NCBI RefSeq assembly: GCF_039602135.1
Contig: NZ_CP125942.1
Span: 310,001-374,000 of the forward strand
DNA length: 64,000 nucleotides
Reading direction: 5' to 3'
Origin: Glutamicibacter sp. B1
GTDB taxonomy: Bacteria > Actinomycetota > Actinomycetes > Actinomycetales > Micrococcaceae
Below, in pieces: positions 6,070-56,745 of the stretch; the first letter of the stretch is position 1; every line of letters starts with the position of its first letter. Both the position numbers and the translations under genes were made by a program. The notes beneath the pieces are model-generated. The model searched no databases. It saw only the letters and a list, made by a program, of their open reading frames with translations, and was not told where the DNA came from.

Positions 6070-6190
6070 GTGGGCTTACGACTCCTTGTCGATTGGGTTT
6101 TCGCTCTTCACCGCTAGGCGGTAGTGCGATCGAGGCAGGAATCCCGGAATCAATGTCGCAACTCGTTGTGGTTAAACAAGGTATGCGGCT

Positions 6191-6280
6191 GCATCGTTTC
6201 TGGCGGTAGCACCGTAACCACCGGATGTGGCAGGTTGCTGCGGCGTCATCGAACCAGATCTCTCAGCCGCTCGGGATGGT
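6191..6280 (-). promoter_or_regulatory. SAM riboswitch (S-box type) upstream of metY
   Basis: On the minus strand: P1 strand ACCATCC, then GAGCGGC, the GAGAGATCTGG segment, GACGCCGCAGCAACC, a variable P3 hairpin, GGTGCTACCGCCAG and the closing GATG. These are the conserved core elements of SAM-I/IV-superfamily riboswitches and match four other copies in this window. It lies about 120 bases before metY. The most divergent part is the closing P1 strand (GATGC instead of GATGG). Confidence 0.9.
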
Positions 6281-6393
6281 GTAACAATCTTCGCAACATG
6301 ACCGTTCGTGACCTAACTATGAGTCTTAACGTTGCGTATTGGACGTAATATCGGAGATTCTTCGATTCGTTGGCGCGCCGGTAGGCTTGGATC

Positions 6394-7547: not shown

Positions 7548-8173
7548 CGCAGGCAAAATTCAACTCCTCGGCAACCGGAGAAGAAGCTGAGCTTTTGGCG
7601 CAGCTTGGAAAAGAACTTCGGGCTAAAGCGAAAGCATCGGACCTACTGGATGTTTCCTACCGTGTGATTGATAGCCCTATCGGCTCGCTCCTGCTGGCTA
7701 GCACTCCAGCTGGTCTGGTGCGTGTGGCCTTTGAGAGCGAAGATCATGACAAAATCCTTGAGCTACTGAGTCAGAAACTCAGCCCGCGAATCCTTAAAGA
7801 CTCGTCGCGACTGGACGCCGTGGCTCGGCAGCTTGATGAGTATTTTGCTGGATCCCGCCGCAATTTTGATGTGCCGCTGGATTTGAAACTTTCCACTGCT
7901 TTCCGGCGTCAAGTGCAATTAGAACTGGGCGAAATTGGCTACGGGCAAACGTGGAGTTACTCGCAAATGGCGGAGCGTATCGGCAACCCGAAGGCGGTGC
8001 GTGCTGTGGGTTCAGCGTGCGCGACCAATCCGATTCCCATTGTCCTGCCATGCCACCGGGTACTACGAACTGATGGTTCACTCGGTGGTTATTTAGGTGG
8101 GCTGGAAACGAAAACTCAATTGCTGAAGTTGGAGAATCCAGACTTCGGTGGCGCAATGAGGACCCTTTTCTAG
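7544..8173 (+). CDS. ogt: methylated-DNA--protein-cysteine S-methyltransferase
   Basis: 209 residues, O6-alkylguanine-DNA alkyltransferase. The suicide acceptor cysteine lies in the invariant PCHRV motif (IVLPCHRVLRTDGSLGGY). The preceding YSQMAERIGNPKAVRAVG helix is the DNA-binding helix-turn-helix with its arginine finger. An N-terminal region of ~45 residues precedes the usual domain. It repairs O6-methylguanine by irreversible transfer of the methyl group. Start at 7544 overlaps the sigma factor stop (ATGA). The pairing suggests the sigma factor's regulon includes DNA-alkylation damage, but this is inference. Confidence 0.92.
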   Translation: MTQAKFNSSATGEEAELLAQLGKELRAKAKASDLLDVSYRVIDSPIGSLLLASTPAGLVRVAFESEDHDKILELLSQKLSPRILKDSSRLDAVARQLDEYFAGSRRNFDVPLDLKLSTAFRRQVQLELGEIGYGQTWSYSQMAERIGNPKAVRAVGSACATNPIPIVLPCHRVLRTDGSLGGYLGGLETKTQLLKLENPDFGGAMRTLF

Positions 8174-8182
8174 TTTTATTGA

Positions 8183-9019
8183 TCAGTTGTTTTCGCGGAT
8201 GCGCATCAAGGAGAGCTCAAGCTGCTCTTTGGCCTGTTCACCCAAACCCAGTATTGGGATCATCGCCTCGGCCTGAAGCAATAGGTGCTGCCAGCCATCT
8301 GAATATTCCAGGCCTTGCTCCATGGCGGACGTGATTGTTCCCGTGGTGTGCTCGCTATACACAAAGTCATAGACAAAGGTTCCAGACGAAAGCTCTTGTG
8401 TACCCCAAGGCGCCACGTCTTCACGATACTTTCCTATAGGTGTGGCGTTAATGATCAAGGTGGCTTGCATGGCGGCTTCGGCAACGTAAGAGAAGTCCAC
8501 TGTCCTTCCTGAAATCCCCATGGAACGTGCCAAGGATAAAAGCTCTTCGGCGGCCATGTGATTTCGGTCAGTGATAGTGATGGTGCCGATGTTTCCCTTG
8601 AGCGCAACCAGGGCAGCACGAGCTGCACCACCAGCGCCGATGAGCAATACGTGTTCATGGATTTTGGTGGCGAGTCTTGCTTCTACTGCAATCAAATCAG
8701 TGTTGTAAGCATTCAGTTTGCCGTCCTGACGAATCAGGAGGTTCGCTGCACCGCTGAGACTGACCTGTTCTGAGCGCTCGTCCGCGATGGCCGCGGCCCA
8801 CTGCTTGTGCGGCATGGTCACGTTGGCGCCTATGACTTCTGAAGAGAGCAAGCCATCATGAACTTTTTGCATGTCACTGTGCACCGGGACATCCCAGGGA
8901 ACGTAATTCCAGTGACTGCCCAATGCCTCAAATACTGGATTCCAGAGGCTGGGTGACATGGTGCCAGAGGCGTGGGATCCGATGATGAATAGTTGTGATG
9001 CGTTGTCCTGGTAACTCAC
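8183..9019 (-). CDS. shikimate dehydrogenase-like (AroE family) oxidoreductase
   Basis: 278 residues from a GTG at 9019 that has AAAGGA six bases upstream; longer starts to 9067 lack this. The substrate-binding end is SHASGTMSPSLWNPVFEAL, the catalytic Lys lies in GANVTMPHKQW, the NADP-binding loop is LLIGAGGAARAAL, and NATPIGKY follows. The usual Ser-x-Ser-Pro of AroE reads Thr-Met-Ser-Pro, so substrate preference may differ (shikimate, quinate or an aminated analogue). It is convergent with ogt, ten bases apart, and divergent from an MHS transporter, which suggests a catabolic rather than biosynthetic role. Confidence 0.82.
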   Translation of the reverse strand: MSYQDNASQLFIIGSHASGTMSPSLWNPVFEALGSHWNYVPWDVPVHSDMQKVHDGLLSSEVIGANVTMPHKQWAAAIADERSEQVSLSGAANLLIRQDGKLNAYNTDLIAVEARLATKIHEHVLLIGAGGAARAALVALKGNIGTITITDRNHMAAEELLSLARSMGISGRTVDFSYVAEAAMQATLIINATPIGKYREDVAPWGTQELSSGTFVYDFVYSEHTTGTITSAMEQGLEYSDGWQHLLLQAEAMIPILGLGEQAKEQLELSLMRIRENN

Positions 9020-24927: not shown

Positions 24928-24935
24928 GATCATCT

Positions 24936-25034
24936 CCATCGGTTCTGGCGGTAGCACCGGCCTATGGAACATGTGATTCATAGGTGGTTGCTGCGACGTC
25001 TAGGAGCCAGATCTCTCGGTCGCTCGGGATGGTT
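24936..25034 (-). promoter_or_regulatory. SAM riboswitch (S-box type) upstream of the short ORF and acsA
   Basis: On the minus strand: AACCATCC, GAGCGACC, GAGAGATCTGGCTC, GACGTCGCAGCAACC, a longer P3 hairpin (CCTATG...CATAGG), GGTGCTACCGCCAG and CGATGG. All conserved core blocks match the copies at 25305, 38210 and 42304. The closing strand overlaps the Shine-Dalgarno of the short ORF. Confidence 0.92.
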
Positions 25035-25304
25035 ACCCGTCCATTACATGATTTCGAACGAATTGAATGCAAATCTTGCGTAACATGAAAAATATTCGAT
25101 AACTACGTCACACGCACGAGATATTTCGTTATTTATTTCATTGAATGCCGGTTTGATCGATGATTGATGATTTTCATGAGTTCATCTTCGGTGGAATGCG
25201 AAGTTGCCTGTGCAAACCGCCTGTCAAACCGGCGCATCGTCACGACGAAATGTGACTTCGTGGCTTGGAAGCACCGCTTTGTTACGGCTACAAATGAATG
25301 AGAA

Positions 25305-25392
25305 CCCATCCAGAGCGGCCGAGAGATCTGGCTCGATGACGCCGCAGCAACCACCCGATTTGCGGGACGGTGCTACCGCCAGGACCGATGGA
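25305..25392 (+). promoter_or_regulatory. SAM riboswitch (S-box type) upstream of the DszC-like gene
   Basis: CCCATCC, GAGCGGCC, GAGAGATCTGGCTCG, GACGCCGCAGCAACC, GGTGCTACCGCCAGGACC, CGATGG. It ends 18 bases before the start codon at 25411, whose GAGGA ribosome-binding site follows P1 immediately. There is no room for a terminator, so control is probably at translation initiation. Confidence 0.93.
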
Positions 25393-25410
25393 AAGAATTG
25401 AGGATTTCTA

Positions 25411-37987: not shown

Positions 37988-38209
37988 TGCATTTAAAGGC
38001 AATAAACCATGCGTGCATGGCAAGCCAAATATGTGTGTTTTTCTTGCTTCTTATGACGGCTTAAGGCTCTTTATGACCGTGAATATTACGAGCTTTCGGG
38101 CGGTGAGCATTTGAAGTTCGTGACATGACGGATTTACTACGTAACGCTTGCAGCTGATCAGTCACAAGTTACAGACTTGAGGAGTCCTAGCGATCATGCA
38201 GGACACCCA

Positions 38210-38295
38210 ACCATCCAGAGCGACCGAGAGATCTGGCTCGAAGACGTCGCAGCAACCACCTCTGTGAGGCCGGTGCTAAGGCCAGAGCCGATGGA
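38210..38295 (+). promoter_or_regulatory. SAM riboswitch (S-box type) upstream of metNIQ copy 1
   Basis: ACCATCC, GAGCGACC, GAGAGATCTGGCTCG, GACGTCGCAGCAACC, P3 CCTC...GAGG, GGTGCTAAGGCCAGAGC, CGATGG. It is the best match of the five to the consensus. It ends about 128 bases before metN. The spacer has a GCGCGCGGTG-TTTTT-CGC stretch that could form part of an expression platform. Confidence 0.94.
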
Positions 38296-38423
38296 GCATT
38301 CACAGTGATTCTCTGATGTCGCGCGCGGTGTTTTTCGCACGCGTCCCAGTGAGTTGACCGCGCTTCTAGGTGCCATCGCCAAGGAGAGAACATGTACTCG
38401 TACTTCCAAGGAGGAAACGTCTC

Positions 38424-42014: not shown

Positions 42015-42303
42015 CTTGTCCTCTCGTTTAAACTGCAATCCATTACAACCGACGCAGTCACTGCAGAATTCCCGAACTATATTTCGTCGTGGCATTAAAT
42101 TCATAGCTCACTGAAATCTCAAGCTTTCGCGTCTTAAAGCGTAAGAGCTGAGAAATGTGTCGGATCATTACGTGGAATATTGCCCCAATCTCATGCTTGG
42201 CCCGCTGATTTATGTCTTGATGACGCTGATTAACGTAACTTTTGTCGGGCCGTGGCCTTGGAAGACAAACTTGAATTGTTCGGGCGGTACATCCGAACAC
42301 CAC

Positions 42304-42389
42304 ACCATCCAGAGCGACTGAGAGATCTGGCTCAACGACGTCGCAGCAACCACCCGACAGGGAGCGGTGCTACAGCCAGGACCGATGGA
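42304..42389 (+). promoter_or_regulatory. SAM riboswitch (S-box type) upstream of metNIQ copy 2
   Basis: ACCATCC, GAGCGACT, GAGAGATCTGGCTC, GACGTCGCAGCAACC, GGTGCTACAGCCAGGACC, CGATGG. Downstream, CACTTCGC at 42397-42404 pairs with GCGAAGTG at 42439-42446 around an inner ATCTG...CAGAT hairpin. This is a candidate expression platform before metN at 42477. Confidence 0.93.
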
Positions 42390-42476
42390 GTACCTTCACT
42401 TCGCCGTACAAAAAATCTGTCAAGACAGATATTTGTTAGCGAAGTGCGCTCCGCATAACCAAGCACTAAAGGAGCG

Positions 42477-46251: not shown

Positions 46252-47670
46252 ATGGCAACTTTCCAAGAACGTCCACGTTTGCTGCTCTCAGCATTCTTGA
46301 TGAACACCTCTAGCCATATCCTTGGCGGAATGTGGCGTCATCCCGAAGCCCAACAGCACCGTTTTAATGAACTGGGCTTGTGGGTGGATCTGGCGAAAAA
46401 ACTAGAAGACGCAAAATTTGATGCGTTGTTCTTTGCCGATGTTGTTGGCCTGTATGGAGACCATGAAGGTGGTTGGGCCTCGCATGTGCGCAAGGGATTA
46501 CAGGTTCCTAGCCATGACCCGCTGGTCCTGCTATCCGCACTGGCGGCTGGAACCAAGGACATTGGATTGGCCATGACCAGCTCCGTCATTCAGAGCCACC
46601 CATTCCAGTTTGCACGACAGATTTCTACCCTCGATCACCTGTCACAGGGTCGTGTGGCATGGAATATCGTCACCAGCGTGCTGGAAAACGCTCACCGTAA
46701 TTTTGGTGGCAAAGACTTAGTTGCCCACGATGATCGTTATGGTTGGGCCGAAGAATATGTTGAAGCCGCTTACAAACTTTGGGAAGGGTCGTGGGAAGAC
46801 GACGCCCTGCTTGCAGATAAACAGTCTGGTGTTTATGCGGATCCGAGCAAGGTCAATAAGATCAACCATCGTGGGGACTTCTATTCCATCGACGGGCCAC
46901 ACCTTGCTCTACCTAGCGCGCAACGTACTCCGTTCCTCTTCCAAGCAGGCTCTTCGGCACGTGGTTCGCAATTCGCGGCAACCCATGCCGAGGCGACTTT
47001 CCTCTTTGCTCCGCATGCACAGTATGTTGCCAAGAAGAATGCGCAGCTGATCGAGAACCTAGCTGCCGCGGGACGCAACCGTGAAGACATCAAGGTCTTT
47101 GCTGGTTTGTCCTTTGTCGTGGGATCCACCGAGGCTGAAGCTAAGGCGTTGGAGGCAGAATACGACGAATATCTGGACCTGGATGCGATTATTGCGCACA
47201 TCGGTGGTGGGCTGGGTGTTGATCTTGGTGGCTTGGATCTAGATACCCCATTGGGGCAGATTCACACCGAGGGTGCTCAGGGTGTACTTGAAGCTGTTAA
47301 GGCTTCGGTCCCTGGCGGCAACCCGACGCTGAAGGATCTGGCCCACTATCGCGCGAAAGCTCAACAGATCGTGGGTACCCCGGAAAGCATCGTAGATGAA
47401 TTAGAACAGTGGCAGGATGCGGGAATTGATGGCTTGAACATCATGAATCACGTGTTGCCAGGATCTTATGACAACTTCATCGAGGGTGTACTTCCAGAAC
47501 TGCGTCGCCGTGGGCTGGCGCAAAGCGAATACGAGCAGGGAAGCCTGCGTCAGAAGGTCTTTGGGCGAGGGGATTACCTGCCAGAGAATCATCCGGCGTC
47601 CCAATACCGGGGTGCTTTTTCTCAGCTGAGCGCAGCGAATACTGAGGCCGCGGCTCAACTGCAAAGCTAG
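46252..47670 (+). CDS. FMN-dependent monooxygenase, NtaA/SnaA/DszA family, copy 2
   Basis: 472 residues, luciferase-like barrel. FDALFFADVVGLYGDHEG, HPFQFARQISTLDHLSQGRVAWNIVTS, AHRNFGGKDLVAHDDRYGWAEEYVE and TPFLFQAGSSARGSQFAATHAEA match the family and the copy at 26802. It starts right after the DszC-like stop. The pair probably performs successive oxygenations releasing sulfite or sulfinate, using reduced FMN from an unlinked reductase. Confidence 0.9.
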   Translation: MATFQERPRLLLSAFLMNTSSHILGGMWRHPEAQQHRFNELGLWVDLAKKLEDAKFDALFFADVVGLYGDHEGGWASHVRKGLQVPSHDPLVLLSALAAGTKDIGLAMTSSVIQSHPFQFARQISTLDHLSQGRVAWNIVTSVLENAHRNFGGKDLVAHDDRYGWAEEYVEAAYKLWEGSWEDDALLADKQSGVYADPSKVNKINHRGDFYSIDGPHLALPSAQRTPFLFQAGSSARGSQFAATHAEATFLFAPHAQYVAKKNAQLIENLAAAGRNREDIKVFAGLSFVVGSTEAEAKALEAEYDEYLDLDAIIAHIGGGLGVDLGGLDLDTPLGQIHTEGAQGVLEAVKASVPGGNPTLKDLAHYRAKAQQIVGTPESIVDELEQWQDAGIDGLNIMNHVLPGSYDNFIEGVLPELRRRGLAQSEYEQGSLRQKVFGRGDYLPENHPASQYRGAFSQLSAANTEAAAQLQS

Positions 47671-53394: not shown

Positions 53395-53421
53395 GCCTGA
53401 AGTGTGCTACTAATGGGAACA

Positions 53422-53500
53422 GTGACACGGGGTGCCGCACGGCGGCTGAGAGAACACCCGTTGAACCTGATCCAGTTAGTACTGGCGAAGGGAATGTCAT
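53422..53500 (+). promoter_or_regulatory. TPP (THI-box) riboswitch
   Basis: TGACA pairs with TGTCA to close P1. Inside are CGGGGTGCC, GGCTGAGA, ACACCCG, TTGAACCTGATCCAGTTAGTACTGGCGAAGGGA. The CTGAGA and the CCTGATC...GCGAAGGGA blocks are invariant thiamin-pyrophosphate-binding elements. It lies about 90 bases before the SDR gene, so thiamin pyrophosphate should shut the SDR/monooxygenase operon down. Confidence 0.97.
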
Positions 53501-53591
53501 AGATTCTGCGTACGCGTGTACCTTTACAGGGCGAACCGTTCGCGTCTTTGGCTACTTCTCCTTCGCCAACAGACGCCAAGGAGTTCACACG

Positions 53592-54392
53592 ATGAGCACG
53601 GACACTCAAACAACGACCCACCCTATTTCCCTGCCATTGGAAGAACAAGTAGTTCTGATCACCGGCGGTGCCCGGGGACTTGGCGCAGCCATCAGCAATG
53701 CTTTCCTCGGTGCTGGCGCGAAAGTTGTAATCAACTACAACACCTCGGCGCAGGCCGCTGAAGAGCTCGTTGCGCGTTATCCGCAGCATGCCCTCGCTAT
53801 TCAGGCCGATGTCCGTGACGAAGCAGGACTGAAGGCAATGGTTGCTGAAGCGAAGGAACACTTCGACGCGCCAGTAACAACACTGGTGAATAACGCCTTG
53901 GTAGATTTCTCCTTTAATGGAGATGCCCGTTCCACCGCGGACGCCATTTCGTCCGAGGAACTCAGTGCACAATTTGCTGGCTCGGTGCTGGCCCCGGTGG
54001 CCGCCATTCAATCCGTACTTCCAGGAATGCGTGAAGTTGGTTTTGGACGCATCATCAATATCGGAACCAATCTGTTCCAGCACCCAGTGGTTCCCTACCA
54101 TGACTACACGGCTACCAAGGCAGCGTTATTGTCCTTGACGCGAACCTTTGCCGATGACCTTGGGCCGGAAGGAATCAACGTCAACATGGTCTCCGGTGGA
54201 CTATTGCGTACCACGGATGCTTCAGCAGCGACTCCGGAAGCAGTATTTGACCTGATTGCTTCAGGAACCCCCTTGCGTCGAGTGACCACTCCCGAAGAAT
54301 TATCCGATGCCGTGCTGTTCTTTGCTTCCCCGCTCTCTCGTGGTGTGACGGGACAGAACCTGATTGTTGATGGCGGGTTGGTGAAAGGTTGA
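53592..54392 (+). CDS. SDR-family oxidoreductase under TPP-riboswitch control
   Basis: 266 residues, classical SDR. The cofactor loop is VVLITGGARGLGAAIS, NNAL follows, and the catalytic YxxxK is YTATK. The catalytic serine position 13 residues before that Tyr is Thr (INIGTN). The C-terminus GQNLIVDGG is typical. FabG-like by fold, but its position behind a TPP riboswitch and translational overlap with a DszA-like monooxygenase mean it most likely acts on a thiamin-related alcohol or aldehyde. GCCAAGGAG precedes the ATG. Confidence 0.87.
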   Translation: MSTDTQTTTHPISLPLEEQVVLITGGARGLGAAISNAFLGAGAKVVINYNTSAQAAEELVARYPQHALAIQADVRDEAGLKAMVAEAKEHFDAPVTTLVNNALVDFSFNGDARSTADAISSEELSAQFAGSVLAPVAAIQSVLPGMREVGFGRIINIGTNLFQHPVVPYHDYTATKAALLSLTRTFADDLGPEGINVNMVSGGLLRTTDASAATPEAVFDLIASGTPLRRVTTPEELSDAVLFFASPLSRGVTGQNLIVDGGLVKG

Positions 54393-55717
54393 GCCAGAAG
54401 AAACAAGTTCACCTGAATCTATTTATTTACGGCACAGGCCACCACCAGGCCGCTTGGCGAGCCGAAGAGTCGGCTGCCGAAAAGCTCTCCGAAGCCCAGT
54501 ACTACATCAATCTTGCTCAGATCGCTGAGCAGGGTTTGCTGGATGCAGTGTTCTTTGCAGATGGGCAAGCTGTGTCGCCCGAAGCAGCGCAAGCAGGACC
54601 CACCTGGTTCTTTGAACCTGTGACCCTGTTGTCGGCGATCAGCCAATGCACGAGGAACATCGGGTTGGTCTGCACCATTTCTGCGAGCTTTTATTCACCT
54701 TTTCATGCCGCGCGTATGCTCGGAAGCCTGCAACATCTCTCCCAAGGGCGGGCCGGGATTAACGTGGCGACGAGCATGTGGGACACCGAAGCTCAGAACC
54801 ATTCGCTGACGGAATTGCCGGCCCACGCTCAACGTTATGCCAGAGCTACCGAGTTCATCGATGTCTTACGTCAGCTGTGGGAATCTTATCCGCACCAAGC
54901 AGTTCAGATTGACCGGGCTGGCGATTTCACAATCGCGAATCAACTTCAAGAGATCAATCATGAAGGTCAGCACTTCTCGGTGCGCGGACCGTTAAACATG
55001 CCTAACTCTGAACACGGAGAACCAGTCCTTTTCCAGGCAGGATCTTCGCCCGCGGGACGTGAATTGGCAGCGACTCATGCCGAGGCAATATATTCAGTAG
55101 CCGCGGATCAGCAGATGGCTGCAGAATTTGCTCAGGATATTTCTGAACGCACCAGTGCTTTGGGCAACCAGAGGTCGCGGGCATTGATCATGCCGGGATT
55201 GGTGACTTATGTGGGGCGTACGCTCGAAGAAGCCAAAGCAAAACAACGTGAGCTCAACGAGTTACTGCCGGTTGAGGATGCATTACGCCAGCTTGGCGTA
55301 TTCCTGCAACAAGACACGAGCCTGTGGCCACTCGATGAGCCTGTTCCAGCGCTGCCACCCTTGGCAGAATTCACCGGACCGGCAGGGCGGTACACCACGA
55401 TCTTGCGACTCATCGAATTGCATCAACCTACCGTTCGAGAGCTCTTGGGCTTGTTGGCCGCTGGGGGAGGACACTGCACGATGGTGGGGACCCCGGAAAT
55501 GATTGTGGACGAGATGGAAGATTGGCTAGACAGTGGGGCTGCAGATGGGTTTAACCTGATGCCGCCTTCTCTGCCTGGATCTTTAGAAGACTTTATTGAC
55601 TTAGTGATTCCAGAACTACAGCGGCGTGGACGATTCCGTACCCGTTACGAATCAACTACGTTGCGTGGCAATCTTGGTCTGACTGTTCCGCAAGAAACGG
55701 TGCTTGCGCCTAGCTAA
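54389..55717 (+). CDS. FMN-dependent monooxygenase (NtaA/SnaA/DszA-like) under TPP-riboswitch control
   Basis: 442 residues. TTG start at 54389 overlaps the SDR stop (TTGA), with GAAAGG upstream. Barrel motifs are LLDAVFFADGQAVSP, PFHAARMLGSLQHLSQGRAGINVATSMWD, EPVLFQAGSSPAGRELAATHAEA and CTMVGTPEMIVDEMEDWL. It is a third DszA-like enzyme in the window but more distant, and the only one without a DszC-like partner. Thiamin control suggests oxidation of a thiamin moiety or degradation product (thiazole or pyrimidine) for salvage. The 3' end overlaps the convergent next gene by four bases. Confidence 0.86.
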   Translation: MSQKKQVHLNLFIYGTGHHQAAWRAEESAAEKLSEAQYYINLAQIAEQGLLDAVFFADGQAVSPEAAQAGPTWFFEPVTLLSAISQCTRNIGLVCTISASFYSPFHAARMLGSLQHLSQGRAGINVATSMWDTEAQNHSLTELPAHAQRYARATEFIDVLRQLWESYPHQAVQIDRAGDFTIANQLQEINHEGQHFSVRGPLNMPNSEHGEPVLFQAGSSPAGRELAATHAEAIYSVAADQQMAAEFAQDISERTSALGNQRSRALIMPGLVTYVGRTLEEAKAKQRELNELLPVEDALRQLGVFLQQDTSLWPLDEPVPALPPLAEFTGPAGRYTTILRLIELHQPTVRELLGLLAAGGGHCTMVGTPEMIVDEMEDWLDSGAADGFNLMPPSLPGSLEDFIDLVIPELQRRGRFRTRYESTTLRGNLGLTVPQETVLAPS

Positions 55718-56745
55718 TTTTGCGGTTGTGCTGCCGGAATTAAACCGGGGAAGTCATTTTCAAAGTAATCCAGAATCTTTTGTGTGGAATAGAAATCTAA
55801 GAGAAATGACTCTTGTAGTGCAAACACATTGCCGCCGCGAATGGACGGCAACAGTCCAAGCGAAGTATCTGTGGTGAACTGTTCAACGGCTTCGGAATCC
55901 GAAGCGAGCAAGAAGGCCACATCTCCTGACACGGACTTTGCTAGCCCGGCGTAACTGGTGAACGCGAAGTCTTCTCGTTCTTGGGCGGAAGTATCAAATT
56001 CTTTGGGCGGATCCGCAACGGTGAAGCCCAGCGCCTCGAAAAGTTGTGCGTGTGGACCGGTGCTTTGGGCTATCGGAGAGATATTTCCTTGATGGTAGGA
56101 AAGGATTGATGCTGTGGTGCCGGCCGGGATCGACAAGGAACGTTTCAAGCCGGCTACACGCCGGTTGATGATGGCGTTATTGCTTGCGGCAGCTTCCTCT
56201 GTGCCAGTGGCTTTGGCTAGATCTGCGCTGAGTGCTGTCCACTTCTCTTCGGTGTAATCGACCAATAACGTTGGTGCGATGTCCTTCAGCTGTTCAAGAT
56301 GAACCAATGCGGAATCGGCGCCTGAGGCCGAGACAATGATCAAATCAGGCTTGCTGTCGCGGATAGCTTCAAGATCAAAATTTCCAATTTCGTAGAGTGC
56401 GTCCACCGAGCGTTTTGAAGCAACTTTGGCCCATTGACTCAAGTAACCGTGCTTTTCCGTAGCAGGGCTTTGCGGCGCTACTGCCGTGGCGATAACTGGG
56501 GCGTTAAGGGCCAGCAAGGATCCTGTCGCCGATACTGAAGTTGAGACGATGCGCTGAGGCTTGGCTGGGATCTTGATGAGATCCCCGGTCTCGTCGGTGA
56601 CCACTCGCGGCCAGTCGTTACTCTCAACGGTGGCAGTGCTGACTTCACGTGCTTCCGGATTTGCCGTTGAATTGCAGGCGCCCAACGAAAATGTCAGAAG
56701 ACAAATCAGCATGGAGGCCACGATTTTCGGCTTGCTTGGACGCAC
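55714..56745 (-). CDS. iron-siderophore ABC transporter substrate-binding lipoprotein
   Basis: 343 residues, FecB/FepB type. Signal peptide with lipobox FSLGACNS. The two-lobe fold shows PQRIVSTSVSATGSLLALNAPVIATAV, NFDLEAIRDSKPDLIIVSASG and FEALGFTVADPP. No permease or ATPase gene adjoins it, so it must share an unlinked transporter. The siderophore-interacting protein lies just upstream on the same strand. Upstream, TTAGG...GCTAAC at about 56804-56818 faintly recalls an iron box. Confidence 0.88.
   Translation of the reverse strand: MRPSKPKIVASMLICLLTFSLGACNSTANPEAREVSTATVESNDWPRVVTDETGDLIKIPAKPQRIVSTSVSATGSLLALNAPVIATAVAPQSPATEKHGYLSQWAKVASKRSVDALYEIGNFDLEAIRDSKPDLIIVSASGADSALVHLEQLKDIAPTLLVDYTEEKWTALSADLAKATGTEEAAASNNAIINRRVAGLKRSLSIPAGTTASILSYHQGNISPIAQSTGPHAQLFEALGFTVADPPKEFDTSAQEREDFAFTSYAGLAKSVSGDVAFLLASDSEAVEQFTTDTSLGLLPSIRGGNVFALQESFLLDFYSTQKILDYFENDFPGLIPAAQPQN

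Follow-up and report, generated by a model that had tools for sequence, protein, structure and literature searches.

A conserved TPP riboswitch-led pair of SDR and flavin monooxygenase genes in Glutamicibacter, with a proposed role in salvage of the thiamin pyrimidine

We analysed a window of 64,000 nucleotides from Glutamicibacter sp. B1 (contig NZ_CP125942.1, positions 310,001 to 374,000 of the forward strand; coordinates below are those of the window), in which a thiamin pyrophosphate (TPP) riboswitch aptamer, or THI element, leads a two-gene operon. The aptamer (53418–53511, + strand) matches RF00059 with 76.1 bits (E 3e-13) against a gathering score of 54.3, and all model positions from 1 to 105 are covered. 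It is followed on the same strand by the gene for a short-chain dehydrogenase/reductase (SDR) of 266 amino acids (53592–54392) and by that for a luciferase-like flavin monooxygenase (LLM) of 442 amino acids (54389–55717). The two open reading frames (ORFs) share 4 nt, the TTG start of the LLM overlapping the stop of the SDR. This arrangement bears out the first-pass annotation, which had placed a TPP aptamer ahead of an overlapping SDR and monooxygenase. Since the next ORF downstream (55714–56745) runs on the opposite strand, the operon consists of these two genes only, and a TenA- or YlmB-type enzyme is absent from it. The genome contains five TPP aptamers, of which the one described here scores best; the other four precede what we take, by inspection, to be thiM-thiE, thiO-thiS, thiC and a ykoE-type ABC operon. 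ThiC, ThiG and a TenA-domain protein are all encoded, so this strain should make both halves of thiamin, with salvage genes besides.

Downstream of the aptamer, the sequence CCTTCGCC (53560–53567, + strand) is complementary to GGCGAAGG in the 3' part of the aptamer (53484–53491), which makes it a likely candidate for the switching segment in the expression platform. It lies just upstream of AAGGAG (53578–53583, + strand), which is positioned 8 nt before the ATG and probably serves as the Shine-Dalgarno sequence of the SDR gene. The two complementary segments pair in the centroid fold but not in the minimum-energy fold, which keeps the aptamer; with a z of only −0.88, the leader is not unusually stable. 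A TTCGCC motif between aptamer and gene was found in 39 of 64 leaders, compared with 3.0 expected from mononucleotide shuffles, the start positions being approximate. No terminator-like site was found in the leader, and its sequence therefore suggests that it is likely to act by translational control. TPP would be expected to repress both the SDR and the LLM.

The LLM belongs to the NtaA/DmoA family. It matches TIGR03860 over the whole model (1–422 of 422) with 481.7 bits, the cut-off being 279.7, and carries the Pfam domain Bac_luciferase. By analogy with other family members, it is presumably an FMNH2-dependent oxygenase. Its AlphaFold2 model has a mean pLDDT of 92, and the nearest solved structure is that of CmoJ (6ask), followed by an NtaA-annotated protein, BdsA, EmoA, LadA, DmoA and RcaE. 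These nearest structures are of enzymes that cleave C-X bonds, which fits the earlier suggestion that the monooxygenase attacks a C-S or C-N bond. SsuD, MsuD and SfnG are remote matches (17–21% identity) that neither support nor exclude an alkanesulfonate substrate such as sulfite-cleaved thiamin. Residues including W73, H106, E134, H138, D240 and W313 are near-invariant in the LLM clade and mostly missing in 11 paralogues, a set that does not include CmoJ.

The SDR (Pfam adh_short_C2) scores 402.8 bits against NF006393, whose curated equivalog cut-off is 292, and falls in the NF006393/PRK08642 group. The name of this model, '3-oxoacyl-ACP reductase', is a family label and not a tested function. 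In an alignment of 70 sequences, T24, G25, R28, G29, G31, T159, Y172 and K176 are near-invariant. On our reading of the motif, the position of the usual catalytic Ser is occupied by Thr159 in this clade, with Tyr172 and Lys176 kept. The Gly-rich TGxxRGxG motif retains its Arg, which we take to be of the NADPH type. The near-invariant stretch TNL.Q.P.VPYHDYTA.K (residues 159–176) could serve as a signature of the clade.

A genome scan for the LLM yielded 192 relatives, the best 80 of which (at least 55% identity) were kept as loci. Aptamers were sought with a covariance model built from the five aptamers of the Glutamicibacter genome, that at 53418–53511 included, and three from relatives. Neighbours were counted with tblastn and this model; ORF calls misplace genes in high-GC loci. 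A TPP aptamer lies upstream of the LLM on the same strand in 63 of the 80 loci. Fourteen of the other 17 are from Achromobacter, two (L008 and L064) are cut by a contig end, and one (L047) has no aptamer. In the 14 Achromobacter loci the aptamer occurs only on the opposite strand, before a divergent symporter gene, and nine of them also lack an adjacent SDR. The SDR is directly upstream of the LLM in 70/80 loci, 65 of these 70 with a gap of 0–60 nt as measured between alignment ends rather than gene ends. Among individual arrangements, the LLM stands alone behind the aptamer in L053, the aptamer of L055 precedes thiM-thiE and these the pair, and in L036 thiD, thiM and thiE are near the pair, with thiM-thiE further downstream.

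The pair occurs behind TPP riboswitches in Actinomycetota, in alpha-, beta- and gammaproteobacteria and in Bacillota; plasmids from Pseudochrobactrum, Rhodococcus and Mesobacillus also carry it together with a TPP aptamer. Of 10 loci with Micrococcaceae paralogues (matches of 39–45% identity), none has such an aptamer at a distance of up to about 4 kb, so that TPP control marks the LLM clade and not the family. These results establish the SDR and the LLM as a real, widely conserved and thiamin-controlled module, which was the check that the first-pass annotation had called for in suggesting a search for such pairs behind TPP riboswitches. Tree distances of SDR and LLM correlate (r 0.75; 69 loci plus the window), a figure uncontrolled for shared ancestry and not used as evidence. 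On an Exiguobacterium plasmid (L150), a TPP aptamer and the SDR are present and the LLM matches only as two pieces (7803–8877) and looks broken.

The SDR also occurs in thiamin operons of its own. A protein search returned 18 plasmid records bearing the SDR, 12 of which were examined. Five alphaproteobacterial plasmid loci (L145, L146, L147, L152 and L153) have the order TPP aptamer-thiM-thiE-thiD-SDR, with the SDR (60–64% identity) in last place; the genes in three unannotated records of this set were located by tblastn. No LLM was found near the SDR in any of the five. These operons tie the SDR itself to the thiamin precursor kinases. The earlier proposal that the SDR oxidises a hydroxyethyl group appears less likely than a reduction, given the Arg in TGxxRGxG and the lone SDR at the end of the thiM-thiE-thiD operons.

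A further component is found in Proteobacteria. A sodium:solute symporter gene is present in 45 of the 80 LLM loci, which amounts to 45 of the 46 proteobacterial ones, and a TPP aptamer lies on the symporter's own strand in all 45, the weakest (L078) at 26.5 bits. Three symporters were examined and belong to Pfam SSF. For two symporters the nearest specific models are PanF and PutP, respectively, both matched far below cut-off. Among 151 genomes of the Halomonas family, sampled as the family of an uncultured Halomonas carrier (G012, L022), LLM orthologues occur in 12 and symporter orthologues (66–100% identity) in 11, all of them within those 12; the other nine symporter matches reach 37–41% identity only. 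A stop was reported inside 4 of the 12 LLM matches (G012, G260, G337 and G347), the alignment of G012 running onto the gene's own stop. From this strict link we infer that what the symporter transports is the substrate of the pair or some related vitamer. TPP-regulated ThiV has been described as panF-like (PMC2211319) and is reported as the likely importer of the thiamin pyrimidine, 4-amino-5-hydroxymethyl-2-methylpyrimidine (HMP), in SAR11 (PMC11452348). The symporter found here resembles ThiV in family and regulation, being an SSF protein with its own TPP aptamer, and differs in being tied to an LLM and an SDR. As side observations, the symporter-side aptamer is present twice in Achromobacter pulmonis (L068), together with a fragment of a second LLM, indicating a local duplication, and in Oceanisphaera a pyrC-type dihydroorotase gene (L025:3471–4571, − strand) lies between symporter and pair; L060, L065 and L079 have genes of the same cluster in the corresponding position.

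We then considered which half of thiamin the carriers can make for themselves. A set of 50 pair-bearing genomes was drawn from the 80 loci by thinning by hand. ThiC was found in 30/50, and 47/50 have a ThiG match that is clear in scoring above 280 bits; a tally of 49/50 would include short cross-matches. Eighteen genomes have ThiG without ThiC, two lack both, and one has ThiC without ThiG. In the Halomonas family, where ThiG is present in all 151 genomes, ThiC is missing in 8 of 12 LLM carriers compared with 10 of 139 genomes without the LLM (p 3e-6 in a one-sided Fisher test, uncorrected for kinship). Here G379, which has ThiC only in pieces, was counted as ThiC-positive; counted the other way, p = 5e-6. 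Salvage of thiazole alcohol, which the first-pass annotation had offered as one role of the pair, is set back by these counts.

The Micrococcaceae, sampled with 197 genomes, contain 56 full-length LLM matches at 54–100% identity (with a stop reported inside those of G102, G122, G132 and G197) and two split ones (G085 and G146), and otherwise none that is full-length above 45%. These 58 were taken as carriers; G167, whose sole LLM match is partial and has a TPP aptamer nearby (L126), was left out. ThiG is present in 53/58 carriers and in 84/139 others, and none of the five genomes with ThiC and without ThiG carries the LLM. Among ThiG-positive genomes, ThiC is missing in 32 of 53 carriers compared with 26 of 84 others (p 8e-4, unstratified p values being inflated by kinship). 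The ThiC count of 84 in this family leaves out the fragmentary G098, G132 and G144 and includes the frameshifted G192. Decay appears to be in progress in some genomes, ThiC being in pieces in G132 (whose LLM has the reported internal stop) and in G379, and the LLM being partial in G167. Overall, carriers of the pair tend to be thiazole makers, and the pair is enriched among cells that depend on pyrimidine from outside.

On balance, we favour a role of the pair as a thiamin-repressed salvage module for HMP, in which the LLM cleaves a C-X bond oxidatively, the SDR reduces an aldehyde and, in Proteobacteria, the symporter imports the substrate. In thiamin and its breakdown products, the CH2 carried by the pyrimidine resembles a benzylic carbon and is bound to N or S. 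At low TPP, the riboswitch would allow synthesis of the SDR and the LLM. Using O2 and FMNH2 supplied by a general flavin reductase, the LLM might then oxidise the methylene carbon of a pyrimidine-CH2-X compound and split off X by cleaving its bond to that carbon, which would leave 4-amino-2-methylpyrimidine-5-carbaldehyde. X could be a sulfonate, a thioether or sulfoxide, an amine or formamide, or what is left of a damaged thiazolium. Using NAD(P)H, the SDR would then reduce the pyrimidine aldehyde, and the resulting HMP would be phosphorylated by ThiD before ThiE joins the product to thiazole made by the cell itself. In Proteobacteria, import of the substrate would fall to the dedicated sodium symporter, which is ThiV-like and under TPP control. 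That oxygenase and SDR travel together could be explained by this scheme, because oxidative cleavage would give an aldehyde that needs a reductase to reach HMP. Sequence data show the riboswitch, the pair and how widely it is conserved, its link with the symporter, the distribution of ThiC and ThiG and the thiM-thiE-thiD-SDR operons; the aldehyde intermediate, the directions of the reactions and the cofactors are suggested by analogy with CmoJ and riboflavin monooxygenase.

Several known systems resemble parts of this proposal. CmoJ (YtnJ/MoxC), the flavin-dependent alkylcysteine sulfoxide C-S monooxygenase of Bacillus subtilis, is 39% identical to the LLM over 440 columns. CmoJ is reported to cleave the C-S bond of a benzyl sulfoxide, with benzaldehyde and a sulfenic acid as products and O2 as the source of the aldehyde oxygen (PMC10863075). 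CmoJ serves cysteine salvage within an S-alkylcysteine operon, whereas the neighbours of the LLM are an SDR and a TPP aptamer, often with a ThiV-like symporter or thi genes; the LLM may work like CmoJ and is not a member of its S-alkylcysteine system. The riboflavin monooxygenase/lyase RcaE shares the fold and family of the LLM at about 30% identity and cleaves the ribityl chain from riboflavin oxidatively (PMC12746152). RcaE is catabolic, in contrast to the LLM, which is linked with a TPP riboswitch and the provision of thiamin. The YlmB/TenA pathway resembles the proposed one in salvaging damaged pyrimidine vitamers and in its end product, HMP, which feeds ThiD. YlmB and TenA are hydrolytic enzymes of other families, unlike the oxygenase and reductase considered here. 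That pathway is reported to convert the products of thiamin degradation, formylaminomethylpyrimidine (FAMP) and aminomethylpyrimidine (AmMP), to HMP (PMC10470507).

Several observations weigh against HMP salvage by the pair as set out above. In the Micrococcaceae, the association of ThiC with the LLM over all 197 genomes, those without ThiG included, is not significant (p 0.27), nor is the ThiC link within genera (Mantel-Haenszel OR 2.4, permutation p 0.13). The uncorrected kinship in the Halomonas-family test must be counted here too, as must genome completeness, which is not given for that sample or for the 50 genomes. The LLM is missing in 26 Micrococcaceae with ThiG and without ThiC and in 10 of 18 Halomonas-family genomes that lack ThiC. 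TenA is present in 148 of the 197 Micrococcaceae, so the substrate of the pair must differ from that of TenA or else the two routes overlap; a distribution of the pair complementary to TenA was considered, and no such pattern was found. The Glutamicibacter genome has thiC, and the pair is thus not essential there. No flavin reductase gene is present in the two-gene operon, and no symporter was found in the window or near the pair in the 34 non-proteobacterial loci. An adjacent SDR is missing in 10 of the 80 LLM loci, and three Caballeronia plasmid SDRs (L148, L149 and L151; 60–62% identity) are encoded at loci where neither a TPP aptamer nor thi genes nor an LLM lie close by, perhaps reflecting a different regulation or role. 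RcaE acts by a reported radical route unlike that of usual flavin oxygenases (PMC12746152), so mechanisms vary within the family. Nonetheless, pyrimidine salvage is the best-supported role on the genome evidence, with the within-genus test as its weak spot, and salvage as such, suggested by the first-pass annotation, is likely for a thiamin-regulated and conserved module.

Other uses of the pair can be judged from the same data. The LLM and the SDR might instead turn an oxidised or modified thiazole into hydroxyethylthiazole for ThiM. The thiM-thiE genes that precede the pair in L055 and lie further downstream in L036, the thiM-thiE-thiD genes before the lone SDR in Alphaproteobacteria and a carrier with ThiC and without ThiG (G021, a metagenome-assembled genome; this gene content also speaks against pyrimidine salvage) are in keeping with this idea. 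We nevertheless consider it quite unlikely: ThiC is missing in 20 of the 50 carriers and ThiG in far fewer, loss of ThiC goes with the pair in a Halomonas family in which ThiG is universal, and the LLM is absent from the five ThiC-positive Micrococcaceae without ThiG. The LLM could also be an oxidative thiaminase that splits thiamin or its phosphate ester into thiazole and a pyrimidine aldehyde, letting cells without a thiamin kinase use external thiamin. Stripping of the side chain from the heterocycle of a vitamin by RcaE offers a precedent in the same family, and ThiM, ThiE and the YkoE-type importer of the Glutamicibacter genome could reuse both halves. Such a role is unlikely, since destroying the vitamin under a switch that is on at scarcity would be costly unless the kinase is missing, and ThiM is rare near the pair (2/80 loci).

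Biosynthesis of HMP from a common metabolite, dependent on O2 and independent of ThiC, would account for the presence of the pair in genomes that lack ThiC, and the pyrimidine oxygenase RutA is a remote match to the LLM. The dedicated proteobacterial symporter suggests an imported substrate, however, and many carriers, that studied here among them, possess ThiC, which makes this explanation very unlikely. Finally, the pair might degrade a thiamin antagonist or free sulfur, with TPP control being secondary. The sulfur-scavenging enzymes DmoA, DszA/BdsA and CmoJ belong to the same family, and a second LLM of the family lies in the window, in a gene run behind an S-adenosylmethionine (SAM) riboswitch. 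The ties to thiM, thiE, thiD and a ThiV-like symporter, together with the ThiC/ThiG pattern, point to the supply of thiamin precursors, and we regard detoxification or sulfur scavenging as very unlikely on the part of the neighbouring gene clusters that was identified.

The second LLM (46252–47670) is about 36% identical to the TPP-linked one and scores 496 bits against TIGR03860. It is the last in a series of + strand ORFs beginning behind the SAM riboswitch at 42302 and is likely to function in sulfur scavenging. The window contains five SAM riboswitches in total (25303–25394, 38208–38297 and 42302–42391 on the + strand; 6188–6282 and 24933–25035 on the − strand), which suggests a cluster of sulfur or methionine operons.

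In comparative work, Rodionov et al. (2002) reportedly named an SDR-type oxidoreductase, oarX, under THI elements, which is not known to have been given a function, an LLM partner or a symporter link; the SDR described here may be its orthologue. No paper joining 'oarX' with 'thiamin' was found in the open literature searched, and no description of the pair behind a TPP riboswitch was found in the main texts of that literature, which does not cover Rodionov 2002. The main text of a 2013 RNA-regulon paper (PMC3766115) does not contain 'monooxygenase', 'oxidoreductase' or 'oarX', and neither PMC3188489 nor PMC12029414 concerns the pair. Within the literature searched, there thus appears to be no earlier report of the LLM as a partner, of the link with a symporter, of the distribution of ThiC and ThiG or of the salvage hypothesis drawn from them.

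Among marine microbes, thiamin auxotrophy is reported to consist most often in lack of the pyrimidine half (PMC11452348), and predictions of auxotrophy rest on known genes (ThiC, TenA, YlmB and transporters). Tentatively, the pair may represent an O2-dependent and TPP-repressed supply of HMP that dispenses with ThiC, starts from a substance so far unrecognised as a precursor of thiamin and has its own sodium symporter. Were this so, a flavin oxygenase would have to be ranked among the enzymes of thiamin salvage, and many bacteria that lack ThiC and are scored as HMP auxotrophs would have a wider and different diet of vitamin B1 fragments. If the salvage proposal is true, the conserved module would add a missing salvage route, alter predictions of auxotrophy and help to find the damaged forms of vitamin B1 that bacteria use.

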